Assembly: GCA_944325535.1 (NCBI GenBank)
Contig: CALVAL010000004.1
Location: 1-48,762 of the forward strand
DNA: 48,762 nucleotides
Source: Candidatus Gastranaerophilales bacterium
GTDB lineage: Bacteria > Cyanobacteriota > Vampirovibrionia > Gastranaerophilales > Gastranaerophilaceae
Direction of reading: 5' to 3'
Part shown: one piece after another, positions 36,953 to 43,449 of the stretch
How the letters are laid out: the number at the start of each line of letters is the position of its first letter
How positions within the stretch are numbered: position 1 is the stretch's first letter
Made by a program: the position numbers and the translations under genes
Notes under the pieces: model-generated
Seen by the model: only the letters and a program-made list of their open reading frames with translations
Databases searched by the model: none
Told to the model about the DNA's origin: nothing

Positions 36953-38749
36953 TTAGTCATTAACTTTTTGTTTATAAACATGGCCCTTACAATCTTTTTC
37001 AATATTTGGAGTATCTATTTCAAATACATAAGCATCAGCAGGTGCTAAATTTACTTTTAATTCATTAGCTTCTACTTGAAATTCGCTTGTATCACCGTAG
37101 CTTGGAACCATATTTACCAATTTTTGGTCTTCTTTTAGACCTGGAATGTCTATAATTCCTGTAACATTTCTATTTGGATTTTTATTAGCAACTACAAGAA
37201 TTGTTCTTCCATTATTATGTCTTGCAAAAGTAATTATTTGATCATTTTTATCTTCTCTTTTATTAAGTTCAATGAAACTACTATTACGATCAGCTAATAC
37301 ATCTTTATTAGCTTCTCTCATTTTTAGAGTTCCTTCCATTACTCTTGCTATATCAGGAGAATCACCTCCCGGTTTTCTTGAAAGATTGAACAAAGCAAGT
37401 CTAAATCTGTGTTCATTCATATCATATTTATCAGTAAATTTACCTTCTTCTTTATTAAATTTTGTTGTCCAAGTCTCTATATTGTCTGTGTCACGATATT
37501 TATAATCATAATAGTCACCTGTTTGGAATCCATCTATAAAATAAGGATTACACATTGGAATTGTAGACTGTAAAACAGTAGTCAACTTACAGAAATTTTC
37601 ACCACCATGAATCATAGATGAACTATCATCATGTGTTAGAAAAGAACCGATTACGCTTTTTCCTGCAGGTAATTTATGAGACAAATCTAAATTTAATTTT
37701 ATATAATCATTAAAATCAGCAGCACCTTTCCAATCGTGGAATATGTGATATTGACCATAGTAATCATCAAAACCAGCTCTTAAAAGATCTTCTGGTCTGT
37801 CATAAGGCATATTTACCATTGGTGACGCACATTCATAAGTATAGCTTTCTGCTAACCAGCCGAATTCAGGATCTTTTTCTCTAGAGTATTTTATTAAAAC
37901 ATCCCAAAATTCAGGAGGTTTCGCTCTAGCAACATCTGCTCTTATACCGTCTATACCTAAATCAATGCAAGCATCTACATACTGTTTATGCATTTCTAAT
38001 AACTTAGGATTTAAAGTTCTTGCAGCTTCATCAGCCCAAGGTTCAAACATTCTTATATCAGTCCATCCTTGAGGAGTTTTTTCTTCTCCGTTTCTTCCAT
38101 ATGCCATCAAGTATGGTTCTGCTTCTAACATATCAACAGAAGCACAGCTTGGTAAATCTAACATCACTTTTATACCACGTTTATGGCACTCATCAATTAA
38201 AGCCTTAAATTGTTCATTAGAAGTTCTTGGATCATTTTTATCAATAATCATAGGATCAATAGCTAAAGAACCATCATCATTTACATACTTTGCTGGAGCA
38301 TATAAAGAACCTGCTGTTCCCATTGCATTTTTCTTTCCAGGAGGATGAATTGGTAAAATATGAATCGTATTTATACCTAAATCTTTTAGCTCGTCTAATC
38401 TATCTATTGCACTTAATAAAGTACCATTTTTTTCACCTGTTGCAAGAGTTACTTTATCATCACCATTTAAATCTTGAGCAGTAAAAGTTCTTGGAACAAT
38501 AGCCATCATCACAGATTCATTATTCTGAATCATAGATCTTAAATTATTCTTATAAGGCTCTATTTTTTGAGTCTTATTTAAATCAATCTTTTTCACTTTA
38601 GCAGTATTAATTAATGCTAAATTATCAAGATACATTTTTGAAGTTTCATTATTGTAACTATTATTCTCAGCTTCTTTTTGTTTGACTTGAGGCTGATAGT
38701 TACTTACTGCTTGGAAATTGATAGGATTAATACTAGCTATTCTTGTCAT
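36953..38749 (-). CDS. GH13 alpha-amylase-family glycoside hydrolase
   Basis: 598 residues. A non-catalytic N-terminal part (1-75) precedes a GH13 TIM barrel: region I VMLDLPSCAS (D198), region II GIRADVARA with nucleophile D272, region III WLAESY with acid/base E301, and region IV FLTHDD with D374. A C-terminal beta domain (about 490-585) follows. Substrate (starch, glycogen or other alpha-glucan) is not predictable by eye. No signal peptide; instead the N-terminus carries NPINFQA (8-14). Shine-Dalgarno AGGTGAG. It overlaps the upstream membrane-protein gene by 17 nt, so it is the third gene of the 42378-36953 operon. Confidence 0.87.
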   Translation of the reverse strand: MTRIASINPINFQAVSNYQPQVKQKEAENNSYNNETSKMYLDNLALINTAKVKKIDLNKTQKIEPYKNNLRSMIQNNESVMMAIVPRTFTAQDLNGDDKVTLATGEKNGTLLSAIDRLDELKDLGINTIHILPIHPPGKKNAMGTAGSLYAPAKYVNDDGSLAIDPMIIDKNDPRTSNEQFKALIDECHKRGIKVMLDLPSCASVDMLEAEPYLMAYGRNGEEKTPQGWTDIRMFEPWADEAARTLNPKLLEMHKQYVDACIDLGIDGIRADVARAKPPEFWDVLIKYSREKDPEFGWLAESYTYECASPMVNMPYDRPEDLLRAGFDDYYGQYHIFHDWKGAADFNDYIKLNLDLSHKLPAGKSVIGSFLTHDDSSSMIHGGENFCKLTTVLQSTIPMCNPYFIDGFQTGDYYDYKYRDTDNIETWTTKFNKEEGKFTDKYDMNEHRFRLALFNLSRKPGGDSPDIARVMEGTLKMREANKDVLADRNSSFIELNKREDKNDQIITFARHNNGRTILVVANKNPNRNVTGIIDIPGLKEDQKLVNMVPSYGDTSEFQVEANELKVNLAPADAYVFEIDTPNIEKDCKGHVYKQKVND

Positions 38750-41312
38750 CGCTCACCTGCTTCATTAAATTATGTGGATTTTTTAATTTACCGAATCCAT
38801 ATTGTGCTAAAACTGTTGCTCCTAGGACAGATGCTCCAATAGTTGATACTATTCTCAACCACTTTTGAGTACCATATCTTCTATCAGCAGCTGCTTTGAT
38901 AAAATCTACTGGACTTTGAGCTACTAAATTAAACATAGTCATTGGTTTTTGACTTTTTTCGTATGCTTTTATATTATTATCCAAAACATGTCCTGGTTTT
39001 GTAAAATCTATAGTCTTATTTCCTATAATATTTCTAAATCTATTAATATAATTTTGTAATCTATCTAATATTTTACCATTTGTAATCTCATTTTCTTTAA
39101 TTGCATTTTTAGTTGCATCAGTAAGATATCCCTTACCTTTTACAATATGTTCTGAAGCTGGACCTTCATACTGACCAACTTGATATATTGTGTTCATGAC
39201 ATCTTTATAAAAACTAGCATTATTTACCATATTATGTTTTAATGCATTTTCAGATGATGTACTAGTTAACAAGATATCTTTACCTTTTTGAAGAATAGCC
39301 CTATCATATTCACCACTTGGAATTTCACGTTTATATACATCCATAGTGTGCAAAAATCTATTAAATGAATTATTTGCACCTTGATATCTTTCAAATATTC
39401 TACTAATTGTTGCTTCTTTTGCAGAACCAACGCCTCTAGCATTTTCCTTTGCTTTATCTATCAATTGGTCTTTTGCTAAAGATTTATCGACTCTTATACC
39501 ATCAAGAAAATCAAACAATTCTTCTCTTGATTTAATTGAATTTGACAGAGTATTTACATCCTCTTTAACTAACTTATCGATTGTATTTTTAAAACTTCCT
39601 GCCTTATCTAATCTAATAGCAGTATTATTATAATTATTTTCTATAGCTGTAATTAAATCTTTAATATGAGATTCATTTGCAGATCTGCCATTTAAAGCTA
39701 CGTCCATTTCTGACATAACTTTTGTAAGCTTATCTATAGCTTTATTATATTTTTTCTCATCTTTTGCAAGAGCTGTTAATTTTGCATCCAAAATTTCTTT
39801 TGCATATTTTTCAGACTCTTTCATTTGTTTCAAATCTTTAAAATTAATATCTAATACATTGAATAAAGTCTTTTCAAATTTTGCATAATATCGAGCAAGA
39901 ACTGTTTCTGATGTATGCTCAAATTTAAATGATTTATACTTATCTAATAGACCTTCATAATGTTTAAATTCACCTAAAATTTTTGAAAAATCAACAATTT
40001 CTCGATACCCTTGGTCTGATAAATAAAGAGATTTTTCTTTTTGTAAATTCTTTGATATATTTTCTAAAAGATTATTATTTTGGAAAGCTTTTAGATATTC
40101 TTTAGTATCATTTGATAATGTTGCATCATTTTTTATTTTATTTGCAAATAAATCTTTTAATTTTCCTTTTATTTGCATTAAGTCATTTCCGCTAACAGTA
40201 TCATGACCTTTTAAGATTTCAGCCATTTCTTCTTTTGATGGAATGAAGATTTTTTCCATTAAAGTTTGATTATTTTTTGGAAGACTCTTTTTAATTAACA
40301 AAATAATATCATCAGCAGCATTATCTGCTAATTTATATCCATTCTTTTCTTGTTCTAAAATTGCAGTCAAATCTTTTTTTATACCATCTGATAGACCTGA
40401 AGGCATATCTTTTGTTAGAATATCAACAATTGCATCTAGTTCAGATTTATGAATTTCTTTTCCTCTATAATTTTTCAATATAGCTTCAACTTTTTTACTT
40501 ACATTATTAGCACCAATCTCATTAGGATCTAGAGTCATTTCACTTGTATTCTTTAAAACTTGTGAAATTCTTGAATTATAAGCCATATTCTTAACATTTG
40601 CATAAGCTGGAGCAATTAATCGTTCTAGCCCAAAACAAGTTAACGCAGCAATTACTGGAGTTGCAGCTCCTGCAGTCAACATCCAAAGAGTGTTATTTTG
40701 AGTAGCTATTTTTCTCATTTGCTCTTTGATTACATCATGTCTGTTTTTAATATCTCTAGGTATTCCTAATCTATCACCTATAATATCTATATCTTCGCTT
40801 GGTCTTTCTCCTTGATACATATCAAAAGGAATATAGTTACTATCTTGGAATACTGATTTTTTACGACCTTGATCATCTATATATTCAATACCTGTATCAA
40901 AGCCATGCATTACTCTTGATGGAGCTTGAATAGCTATTTTAGGGAATATAGACATTGCTGCCAAAAAAGCACCTAAGCCTGCATATTCCATAATTCTTGC
41001 AACGGGATTGGTTGTTCTAGCTGCTAACATTGTAGCAATACCTACACCACCTAATTTAATACCAACATCATTCAAACGCCCTGTTTGGTGATCATTAGCA
41101 TTACCTCTAAAACCATCTCTTACAGCCTTTAAATCATAAGCGAAGTCTTTCCAGAAAAATTTAGGCATTTGCATTAATCTGTCATGCACCAAATGTCCTT
41201 CTGGCGCTAATGGTTTTACATTATTTTTTGTTTTTACAGGCTTATTAGCCTCATTATAATGTTTATGAGACTTAGTATTATCTATATTTGCTTGAATTGG
41301 AGATATTGCCAT
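38733..41312 (-). CDS. Large unknown membrane protein with coiled-coil regions
   Basis: 859 residues, not recognised. A polar Lys/Asn-rich N-terminus (1-45) is followed by hydrophobic segments at about 85-125 and 210-230, a long Lys/Glu/Asp-rich, mostly helical region with coiled-coil character (about 240-790), and a final hydrophobic helix near 830-845. No enzymatic motif is visible. Its start is 1 nt after the stop of the upstream gene and its end overlaps the GH13 gene, so all three are co-expressed. Topology suggests a large soluble middle domain held between membrane anchors. Confidence 0.75.
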   Translation of the reverse strand: MAISPIQANIDNTKSHKHYNEANKPVKTKNNVKPLAPEGHLVHDRLMQMPKFFWKDFAYDLKAVRDGFRGNANDHQTGRLNDVGIKLGGVGIATMLAARTTNPVARIMEYAGLGAFLAAMSIFPKIAIQAPSRVMHGFDTGIEYIDDQGRKKSVFQDSNYIPFDMYQGERPSEDIDIIGDRLGIPRDIKNRHDVIKEQMRKIATQNNTLWMLTAGAATPVIAALTCFGLERLIAPAYANVKNMAYNSRISQVLKNTSEMTLDPNEIGANNVSKKVEAILKNYRGKEIHKSELDAIVDILTKDMPSGLSDGIKKDLTAILEQEKNGYKLADNAADDIILLIKKSLPKNNQTLMEKIFIPSKEEMAEILKGHDTVSGNDLMQIKGKLKDLFANKIKNDATLSNDTKEYLKAFQNNNLLENISKNLQKEKSLYLSDQGYREIVDFSKILGEFKHYEGLLDKYKSFKFEHTSETVLARYYAKFEKTLFNVLDINFKDLKQMKESEKYAKEILDAKLTALAKDEKKYNKAIDKLTKVMSEMDVALNGRSANESHIKDLITAIENNYNNTAIRLDKAGSFKNTIDKLVKEDVNTLSNSIKSREELFDFLDGIRVDKSLAKDQLIDKAKENARGVGSAKEATISRIFERYQGANNSFNRFLHTMDVYKREIPSGEYDRAILQKGKDILLTSTSSENALKHNMVNNASFYKDVMNTIYQVGQYEGPASEHIVKGKGYLTDATKNAIKENEITNGKILDRLQNYINRFRNIIGNKTIDFTKPGHVLDNNIKAYEKSQKPMTMFNLVAQSPVDFIKAAADRRYGTQKWLRIVSTIGASVLGATVLAQYGFGKLKNPHNLMKQVSDDKNS

Positions 41313-41313
41313 A

Positions 41314-42378
41314 CTAAATCACCGTACTTTCTTCATTTTTATCCATTAGATCTTTATTTGCTAACTTGCCCATATGACGAGCTTTATATATTACATTTGC
41401 AACTGAACCTGCTGTTAAAGCTATAGTAGCTAAAATCCAAGTTTTACCTGCATGTTTTAACACACCATATTCCTCTTTTCCTGCCCAAAGAGATTTTGCA
41501 GATTTAACAAATGAACTTCCAAATGTCTTTGATATATCTACCAAATTTGTACCTGCATTTTTTAGTCTGCTGCCGACTTTAGTCATAAAACTTTCATTTG
41601 GCTTTGCAATATGGCGTTTTCTATTAGAAATTGAATCAAAGAAATCCCCCCAACAATCTTGAGCAGCCATGCCTACACCTAGTGCTGCCCAAGCATATGA
41701 TGATAAACTTTTTGCAGTTTTTGTTGTTGAAATGATACTTTGAATTATAGGAGTTGTCTCTGTTACTGAATCATTAAGATCTTCACCTAATCCAATTTTT
41801 TTAGCGATATTATCATAATATTTTATACCTATATCTTTTTGAATTAAATCTTTTCTAAAAAATTCTCTACTATCGTATACTTTTCTTTGCTGTATTTGAG
41901 GAATTATTGTTGCATTTTCTCCAGCTTCTTTTGGTAGCGGATAAGAAATATGTTGAACTGGAAGTTCTATATCAACACCAGTACCTAAATATACCGGACG
42001 AGTTACAAAATCATTTGAAATTGTTTTGAATAGACCATACAAAACAACTCCTAAAGCCATTTTATTACCATTAAATGATGCTAATAGTTGAGATTTTGGG
42101 TTCAATTTTTTTACAATATTAAATAACCCCATAAACATACCACTACCAACAAGATAAGGTATAATTCCCATAGAAAGGAATTCATAAAAATCAGAGTTTA
42201 CATCCCCTTTAAGTCCTTTAATAGGATATTCTAAAAAAGCATTAGAAGTCTTGTGAAATTTTTGACGAACTCGAGTTTGCAAAGTATTAGGCAAAATCTT
42301 TGATTCTTCATCAATTTCTTTCTTTTGCTTAGCTTTAAAATCTACATTATTGTCTGATAATCTTACCGGTCTAATCAT
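41314..42378 (-). CDS. Unknown multi-pass membrane protein
   Basis: 354 residues, not recognised. A polar N-terminus including NNVDFKAK (10-17) is followed by hydrophobic helices at about 70-92, 108-118, 225-245 and 315-335; the C-terminus is polar. A TGGGG ribosome site lies about 6 nt before the ATG. First gene of a three-gene operon with the 859-aa membrane protein and the GH13 enzyme, behind a diverged copy of the shared promoter element. Confidence 0.75.
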   Translation of the reverse strand: MIRPVRLSDNNVDFKAKQKKEIDEESKILPNTLQTRVRQKFHKTSNAFLEYPIKGLKGDVNSDFYEFLSMGIIPYLVGSGMFMGLFNIVKKLNPKSQLLASFNGNKMALGVVLYGLFKTISNDFVTRPVYLGTGVDIELPVQHISYPLPKEAGENATIIPQIQQRKVYDSREFFRKDLIQKDIGIKYYDNIAKKIGLGEDLNDSVTETTPIIQSIISTTKTAKSLSSYAWAALGVGMAAQDCWGDFFDSISNRKRHIAKPNESFMTKVGSRLKNAGTNLVDISKTFGSSFVKSAKSLWAGKEEYGVLKHAGKTWILATIALTAGSVANVIYKARHMGKLANKDLMDKNEESTVI

Positions 42379-42403
42379 ACGAACCCCATCTGGTACCTAT
42401 ATA

Positions 42404-42432
42404 TTAAAAGTCTTGTAAATATAAAATTTTGC
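42404..42432 (-). promoter_or_regulatory. Shared promoter element, diverged copy D
   Basis: Minus strand: GCAAAA (42432-42427), exactly 13 nt, then AGACTTTTAA (42413-42404; 7 of 10 bases as in copies A-C) followed by TATATAG, 25 nt before ATG 42378. An ATATGTAAATTT block upstream matches copy B. Confidence 0.4.
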
Positions 42433-42581: not shown

Positions 42582-43070
42582 TTAATCACGTTTACTTAAC
42601 TCATGATCCATTAAGAACAAAGAAGTTTTTTCATCACCAAACAGTTCAAGGCGCTTTAGAATATCTTTTATATTCTGTTCCTCTTCTATTTGCTCATTTA
42701 TAAACCAATCAATAAATGATAGAGTTGTTCTGTCGCATTCATCTTCTGCAGCTTTTGCAATTTTCATAACGCATGCTGTTATATTTTTTTCATGTTCATA
42801 AATGTGATTAAAAATAGATACAACTCCATTAAACTCGAATTCTGGAGTACGAATTTGCTTAAGAGTTACAAAACTGTTTCTTTCTATAAGATAATCTAGC
42901 AATTTTAATCCATGCTCGACTTCTTCTTTTGCTTGTATTCTCATCCAAGATGCAAAGCCAAATAAACCAATCTCCTTTAGATGAGCCGACATTGATAAGT
43001 ATAAGTATCCGGAATAAAATTCCAAGTTTATTTGTTCGTTAATTATATTATTAATTTTTTCGCTAATCAT
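42582..43070 (-). CDS. ftnA: Non-haem ferritin
   Basis: 162 residues, a four-helix-bundle ferritin storing iron as ferric mineral in a 24-mer. Seen: E17 in the first helix, the ExxH pair in KEEVEHG (about E50 and H53), further acidic residues near 94 and Gln in NEQIEEE near 127, as in FtnA ferroxidase centres. Shine-Dalgarno GGGGGAA. It overlaps the superoxide reductase gene by 8 nt, so iron storage and superoxide defence are co-expressed. Confidence 0.93.
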   Translation of the reverse strand: MISEKINNIINEQINLEFYSGYLYLSMSAHLKEIGLFGFASWMRIQAKEEVEHGLKLLDYLIERNSFVTLKQIRTPEFEFNGVVSIFNHIYEHEKNITACVMKIAKAAEDECDRTTLSFIDWFINEQIEEEQNIKDILKRLELFGDEKTSLFLMDHELSKRD

Positions 43071-43449
43071 TTTTATTCCCCCACAATCTATGTATATTGC
43101 AATAACTTACAGCCTCAATTTCATCCATGCATTTTGGAATTTTAAATTCAGCTTTATCGTTTGGGGAGAGATATTTTAAATACATTTTTGATTTATTTTT
43201 ATCCGTTACTTCAATAAATTGAATGTAATGTTCTTCACTCATAGGATGCTTATTCACAGTTACATATTTTTTATCATCTCTTATTTCTATTTCAGGCATG
43301 TGCTTTTCACCAATTTCTTCTCTTGATGTCTGTATTTCTTGCTTTTTCATTTTTTCTCCACAACATACAAGCTCACCTTCGCCTGGAATAAGAACTTGAA
43401 TAATATTGCCACATATTTCACATTTGTAAATTTCTAATTTCTTTGTCAT
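43063..43449 (-). CDS. dfx: Desulfoferrodoxin / superoxide reductase
   Basis: 128 residues, class I desulfoferrodoxin. The N-terminal rubredoxin-like centre I has CEIC and a CC pair (about residues 10-13 and 29-30). The catalytic centre II has the EKH motif in GEKHMPEI, KHPM, a further His in EEHYIQF, and the C-terminal CNIH. It reduces superoxide to peroxide without releasing O2, typical of anaerobes. Shine-Dalgarno AAGGAAAG. Coupled to ferritin. Confidence 0.95.
   Translation of the reverse strand: MTKKLEIYKCEICGNIIQVLIPGEGELVCCGEKMKKQEIQTSREEIGEKHMPEIEIRDDKKYVTVNKHPMSEEHYIQFIEVTDKNKSKMYLKYLSPNDKAEFKIPKCMDEIEAVSYCNIHRLWGNKND

Follow-up and report, generated by a model that had tools for sequence, protein, structure and literature searches.

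A three-gene unit encoding two membrane proteins, MP1 and MP2, together with a GH13 enzyme was found to be conserved as a single unit in the Gastranaerophilales and some relatives, and we propose with modest confidence that MP1 and MP2 form a membrane scaffold which holds a probably cytosolic, non-canonical GH13 enzyme. The window (the whole stretch of 48,762 nucleotides that was analysed) stems from a member of the Gastranaerophilales and carries the three genes as consecutive ORFs on the minus strand: MP1 (354 aa, 41314..42378), MP2 (859 aa, 38733..41312) and the GH13 enzyme (598 aa, 36953..38749). The ORF coordinates agree with an earlier sequence-only reading of this DNA, which had described a 1-nt gap between MP1 and MP2 and a 17-nt overlap between MP2 and the GH13 gene, whose start thus lies inside the MP2 gene.

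The order MP1-MP2-GH13 and the adjacency of the genes were kept in 113 of the 126 loci examined. Of the remaining loci, three encode MP2 and GH13 in one ORF and ten are truncated because the contig ends there; a contrary arrangement was seen in no locus, which places the conservation of order and adjacency far beyond chance. MP1 and MP2 are present together in 136 of 146 genomes of the family and are both missing from the same ten, and the five genomes that lack a complete cassette GH13 all have the unit at a contig end. Beyond this family, the unit was also detected in one further family of the order and in another family of the class. The three genes therefore do co-occur in relatives, in the gene order whose conservation the sequence-only reading had proposed to check, and the data support that they constitute one conserved unit.

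Topology of the membrane proteins was judged by eye and by mean hydropathy over 69 MP1 and 67 MP2 homologues. MP1 contains four weakly hydrophobic segments (residues 67-85, 107-125, 221-239 and 313-331), and MP2 contains four equally modest ones (80-98, 110-128, 209-227 and 822-840). The anchors that had been assumed at both ends of MP2 are thus present as hydrophobic stretches, but three of them lie near the N-terminal end and one near the C-terminal end. Residues 228-821 of MP2 (38850..40631, minus strand) form a long helical domain, as had been read from the sequence; the AlphaFold2 model (mean pLDDT 83.7, mostly 80-97 in this domain) shows a middle part that is nearly all helix. The MP1 profile matches inside MP2 and the two families are homologous by profile comparison (hhalign E=2.6e-5), a relationship that is new here. 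The N-terminal membrane part of MP2 is related to MP1, and the helical domain is an insertion that MP1 lacks, placed between the third and fourth hydrophobic segments. Lys and Arg residues are nearly equal in number on both sides of the membrane (9.2 versus 11.4 for MP1, 11.3 versus 12.3 for MP2), and charge therefore does not settle which side is which.

Remote-homology searches and structure prediction, the checks that the sequence-only reading had named for the two membrane proteins, linked neither of them to a known family or fold. Nothing in Pfam or NCBIfam scored over the cut-off, so that the match to a known, unrelated family that would have weighed against that reading was not seen, and PHROGs and PADLOC gave no match for MP1 or MP2. 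Foldseek searches returned no match at E<=0.001, the best Z values of the VIA fold search (6.0 and 7.8) lie within the noise for helical models, and fold searches that included viral models for MP1 gave no match. A phage or defence origin of the unit was considered and rejected, as PHROGs was without a match and PADLOC yielded a GlgB-like match for the GH13 enzyme alone. A protein of 337 aa (L257) with a weak own-genome match to the MP2 profile (E=0.0025) was likewise discarded as an MP2 relative; it belongs to a separate, widespread family found in 46 of 60 genomes.

The enzyme scores 32 bits against PF00128 (gathering cut-off 22), with an alignment limited to residues 84-199. Alignment identified D272 as the presumed nucleophile (37934..37936), E301 as the presumed acid/base (37847..37849) and D374 as the presumed third catalytic Asp (37628..37630, all minus strand). 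All three residues, which the sequence-only reading had called intact, and the arginine preceding the nucleophile are retained in 103 of 103 covering rows (105 aligned). The canonical GH13 region I motif is Asp...Asn-His; the window enzyme differs from the family here, since D198 is retained while the Asn-His is replaced within a D-L-P-S-C-A-S-like stretch, and it further differs by its N-terminal tail and its membrane partners. With this alteration the enzyme may have an unusual activity or may have lost it, but GH13 membership is not excluded because region I of GlgE, itself a GH13 member, also deviates in the alignment. Among solved structures, those closest to the profile include the Thermotoga maltosyltransferase 1gju (E=7e-25) and GlgE 3zss (E=4e-17), and the altered region I resembles that of GlgE; the alignments of both to the window enzyme are only partial, and we know of no comparable membrane partners for either. 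No named GH13 equivalog of NCBIfam (TreZ, MalA, PulA and others) was matched over its cut-off, the best score being 36.3 bits against a cut-off of 538.8, and a test for GlgE gave no GlgE model among the NCBIfam matches and only a GLGE_C score short of the Pfam cut-off (E=0.015). Signal peptides were judged by eye. The cassette enzyme lacks one, whereas five inspected GH13 paralogues of the same bacteria (L265:284-1837, L128, L129, L132 and L133) have an apparent signal peptide. Four of these paralogues, which were aligned, are 35-38% identical to the window enzyme and have the same altered region I and triad; the paralogues differ in being without the tail and form their own clade (98/100).

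A physical complex of MP2 with the enzyme is likely, because the two are fused in three relatives (L275, L276 and L277) in which a hydrophobic segment is retained between both parts. The fused genes form a single group in the tree (84/94) and hence may go back to a single fusion event. The enzyme tied to membrane scaffolds of the sequence-only reading thus stands as far as the conserved unit and the fusions are concerned, while the complex itself is something we infer. A giant GH13-related protein adjoins the unit in seven of nine f41 loci, and for the window's own family it appears in 4 of the 34 neighbourhood rows; this neighbourhood in some relatives makes a glycan role of the unit plausible.

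The N-terminal tails carry short motifs. VDFKA (MP1 residues 12-16, 42331..42345, minus strand), located in a tail modelled with low confidence, follows the pattern hydrophobic-x-F-x-[A/S/G]. Among 93 distinct N-termini of MP1, 43 have this pattern, compared with a mean of 7.0 and a maximum of 15 in shuffled sequences. As read from the sequences, INPINFQA of the enzyme (residues 7-14, 38708..38731, minus strand) is similar to ISPIQAN, with which MP2 begins in the window's genus. A conserved element, SKMYLDNLALINTAKVKK (residues 37-54, 38588..38641, minus strand), precedes the catalytic domain and has NLLxxYLxNxAxIN as its counterpart elsewhere. Among 47 representatives, the strict tail pattern occurs in the GH13 tail in 25 (mean of 0.9 after shuffling) and at the N-terminus of MP2 in 18 (mean of 0.3 after shuffling); it is absent from the window's genus, and it also matches core residues 300-390 of the enzyme in 19 of 47. 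With kinship ignored, MP2 and GH13 tails from one genome resemble each other only slightly more than tails paired across genomes do (65 of 2,000 permutations as high), and a nearby control pairing MP2 residues 2-28 with GH13 residues 45-89 gave a similar value (129 of 2,000), which led to the second tail element. A lineage-wide N-terminal F-x-G/A tag was not established and remains a lead. A first count on redundant loci gave 3.9 versus 2.4, and F[KQSTGNR][AG] was not enriched at N-termini (2.0 versus 2.5 per thousand residues; 20-stretch sample, one same-genus genome). Counted over families, a looser pattern showed a 1.9-fold enrichment (40 of 769 versus 90 of 3,167 windows, p=0.001), and a 5-mer form was 2.1-fold enriched (11 of 588, p=0.03) or 1.4-fold with Ala allowed (p=0.2). 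The short N-terminal motif bears some resemblance to the cargo peptides of bacterial microcompartments and encapsulins.

The scaffold proposed here would consist of a probably heteromeric assembly of MP1 and MP2, in which the large helical part of MP2 could serve as spacer or dock. The enzyme, devoid of an export signal, would be held on it through its N-terminal tail and MP2-coupled translation, and in some relatives through fusion directly behind the last MP2 hydrophobic segment. The substrate would probably be an alpha-glucan, for example glycogen or maltodextrin taken up by the cell. It is unlikely that the complex instead faces the periplasm or cell surface, with N-terminal tails crossing by an unknown route and the enzyme acting on extracellular or envelope glycans: loop charge slightly favours N-out for MP1 and MP2 and several genera have, upstream of the unit and in the same orientation, an undecaprenyl-diphosphatase-like gene (named by eye from its sequence), but the close paralogues possess the signal peptide that the cassette enzyme lacks, and an exported version thus already exists via the usual route. 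The surface complex suggested by the sequence-only reading found no support, given the apparent lack of a signal peptide and charge patterns that do not settle the side.

Mere co-regulation with an independent soluble enzyme, for which a tight operon could suffice, appears very improbable in view of the fusion in three genomes, the all-or-none presence and the tail motif common to MP2 and GH13. Equally doubtful is a GH13 part that has become a sugar-binding or structural component of the scaffold, neither hydrolase nor transferase any more; the missing Asn-His of region I would fit such a role, yet the catalytic residues and the arginine are retained in every covering row. The combination of a homologous pair of multi-segment membrane proteins and a GH13 enzyme is also reminiscent of the animal heteromeric amino acid transporters rBAT/4F2hc, in which a GH13-like domain accompanies multi-pass membrane partners. 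That MP1 and MP2 form a channel or transporter with the enzyme as accessory subunit is nonetheless the kind of analogy to which we give hardly any credence, as no transporter family or fold was matched, no sequence or fold link to rBAT/4F2hc was found, and the catalytic triad is fully retained whereas rBAT/4F2hc are, to our knowledge, not active enzymes.

Glycogen metabolism was considered as the partner pathway and rejected. GlgA scored over the cut-off in 34 of 36 genomes and GlgC in 19 of 19, whether the unit was present or absent, and nothing therefore links the unit to glycogen in particular. One genome (G036) is without GlgA, yet its four congeners have it, which makes an assembly gap likely. 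No published description of the unit was found in the portions of the literature covered; the portions consulted of three articles (PMC4040986, PMC3787301 and PMC5877343) mention glycogen or starch use or storage and a Gram-negative envelope and do not mention the unit. A bolder and quite unlikely extension would see MP1 and MP2 as a class-specific, membrane-attached glucan-processing body, to which the N-terminal tags F-x-G/A and NLIxxYLxN would recruit alpha-glucan enzymes, namely the cassette GH13, the giant GH13-related protein and a large GlgA-like synthase. If true, this would be a novel kind of metabolic compartment in bacteria, equipped with a targeting code of its own.

MP1 and MP2 are previously undescribed, mutually related membrane proteins, and the unit hints at a new kind of membrane-bound machine for sugar polymers. 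In uncultured, cyanobacteria-related gut bacteria, two membrane protein families with no matching known fold are kept inseparably with one enzyme, and both the fusion and the operon directly predict a complex that can be tested for. If confirmed, the three genes would encode one membrane complex as a trait of some families of the class, which would represent a new way of placing an alpha-glucan enzyme at the membrane and would offer an initial access to part of the uncharacterised proteins in this class.

Three minus-strand ORFs encode a 354-aa membrane protein (MP1, 42378-41314), an 859-aa membrane protein (MP2, 41312-38733) and a 598-aa amylase-family GH13 enzyme (38749-36953). Their coordinates bear out the 1-nt gap between MP1 and MP2 and the 17-nt overlap between MP2 and GH13 described in the sequence-only reading, whose upstream end at 42432 takes in 54 nt upstream of MP1. 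A ferritin gene (Pfam) lies 203 nt upstream and a hexapeptide acetyltransferase gene lies downstream on the opposite strand. Desulfoferrodoxin and ferritin genes overlapping by 8 nt (42582-43449) precede the unit, as they do in two loci of the same genus (L096 and L097). Flanking genes vary among genera; in several, a QueD-like and an undecaprenyl-diphosphatase-like gene, both named by eye, are found upstream on the same strand (L104, L106-L110, L123, L124 and L126; one gene apart in L122).

Gene order was analyzed in 126 loci, comprising the window, 33 family-genome loci chosen at cassettes, 80 named loci chosen by MP1 alone, as well as three loci from a second family of the order and nine, chosen by GH13 alone, from f41, another family of the class. 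The order MP1-MP2-GH13 on one strand was present in 113 loci, with median gaps of 1 and -14 nt. MP2 and GH13 were fused in three others, ten were cut by a contig end and none showed a contrary order, which verified conservation of the arrangement in relatives. The three fusions are single f41 ORFs (986, 1030 and 1082 aa), one of them in a single-contig genome, and retain the last hydrophobic MP2 segment between their MP2 and GH13 parts. One genome (G368) carries both a fused and an unfused copy, and the L275 fusion, the one inspected in full, keeps the catalytic residues. As the fused GH13 parts form one group in the tree (84/94), all three fusions may stem from a single event.

Profile searches detected MP1 and MP2 in the same 136 of 146 family genomes, the host genome being a 2.0-Mb draft, and both were missing from the same ten (G011, G015, G018, G051, G054, G058, G081, G089, G106 and G126), in agreement with co-occurrence. 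Some GH13 match was obtained in all 146 genomes; in these ten, matches reached only 4e-63 to 7e-102, the level of an exported paralogue, and the GH13 proteins of the two inspected (G018 and G081) have an apparent signal peptide. Five genomes with MP1 and MP2 lack a cassette-level GH13 match (G004, G030, G042, G055 and G083); the unit lies at a contig end in all five and a GH13 gene stump remains in two. The MP1 profile yielded 309 confirmed loci, and labels of the best 80 named were mostly Candidatus Gastranaerophilales, Melainabacteria, cyanobacterium or uncultured bacterium, the Acinetobacter label on a few probably being a misnomer. In a phylum sample of 292 genomes, MP1 was found in 131, of which 130 belong to the own family and one to the second family of the order; it was detected neither in the five genomes taken from another family in the class nor in the sampled rest of the phylum. 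Three of four second-family genomes contain MP1, and their units (L264, L284 and L285) are all complete. Searching 60 genomes of the class with a GH13 profile produced strong matches in f41, where MP1 and MP2 accompanied GH13 in all nine loci fetched whole (L275-L283). The unit thus reaches beyond the order.

Profile comparison aligned 198 columns of MP1 and MP2 (E=2.6e-5, probability 75%). The MP1 profile matches inside MP2 in three genomes and also in L290 (5.5e-8), the MP2 profile matches f41 MP1 proteins, and the two proteins share an arrangement of four weakly hydrophobic segments; MP1 and MP2 are relatives. Own-family MP2 carries about 590 mostly helical residues between segments 3 and 4, and unfused f41 MP2 is shorter (505-625 aa). 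The predicted models (pLDDT 78.7 for MP1 and 83.7 for MP2, pTM 0.74 for both) had no Foldseek match at E<=0.001 in the PDB, nor did MP1 among viral models, and the best VIA Z values (6.0 and 7.8) are within noise for helical models. No sequence family was found in Pfam, NCBIfam, PHROGs or PADLOC and no convincing relative among solved structures by profile, so that the placement of both proteins outside known families stands in the searches employed. A 337-aa multi-segment membrane protein elsewhere in the own genome (L257:1321-2334, contig C43) belongs to a separate protein family; 46/60 family genomes contain members of it, frequently as multiple or partial copies.

The GH13 enzyme has a 32-bit Pfam match over residues 84-199, and the solved chains nearest to its profile are 4gkl, 1gju, 3dhu and GlgE 3zss. 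Its Asp-Glu-Asp triad (D272, E301 and D374), reported as intact, is kept in 103/103 covering alignment rows and C202 in 105/105. In region I, D-L-P-S-C-A-S takes the place of the Asn-His seen in the aligned 4gkl chain, and GlgE is likewise different at this point. The cassette enzymes have no signal peptide by eye and start with some 60-105 residues of hydrophilic tail. In contrast, all five exported paralogues inspected (L128, L129, L132, L133 and own-genome L265), a separate clade (98/100), show an apparent N-terminal signal peptide.

A giant GH13-related protein (about 1270-1490 aa) adjoins the unit in 4/34 own-family rows, downstream on the same strand (L112:3065-7156, L113:12868-17268, L116:12779-16579 and L120:3371-7207), and in 7/9 f41 loci, divergently oriented (L275-L280 and L283). 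Most of these giants have an N-terminal F-x-G. They are homologous to an own-genome 1616-aa GH13-containing protein, whose gene follows those for a NAD epimerase and an 873-aa GlgA-like protein (L134, contig C13, 2344-11021); all three products carry F-K/R-G near the N-terminus (LGFKG, IVFRG and LGFKG). Since GlgA and GlgC occur in genomes with and without the unit, storage glycogen is not supported as the substrate.

Among 47 representatives, the motif [NDSTG]-hydrophobic-hydrophobic-x-x-[YF]-aliphatic occurs in the MP2 N-terminus of 18 and the GH13 tail of 25, against shuffled means of 0.3 and 0.9, respectively; this count is by itself non-specific because a GH13 core segment is matched in 19/47. 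Of 1874 ORFs scanned, just 10 outside the cassette have a slightly longer form within their first 35 residues. The window's genus deviates, with SKMYLDNLALINT in GH13 and ISPIQAN in MP2. MP1 N-termini contain hydrophobic-x-F-x-[ASG] in 43/93 (shuffled mean 7). Unrelated proteins share N-termini like MKIS...SFKG (for example L249:17080-19257, L239:11677-12744 and L238:2411-2719), for which enrichment against a proteome sample is weak or absent. The tails of MP1, MP2 and GH13 are putative docking peptides. The earlier observation of a three-gene unit holds and is stronger than sequence alone could tell, and its three products likely form a physical assembly.
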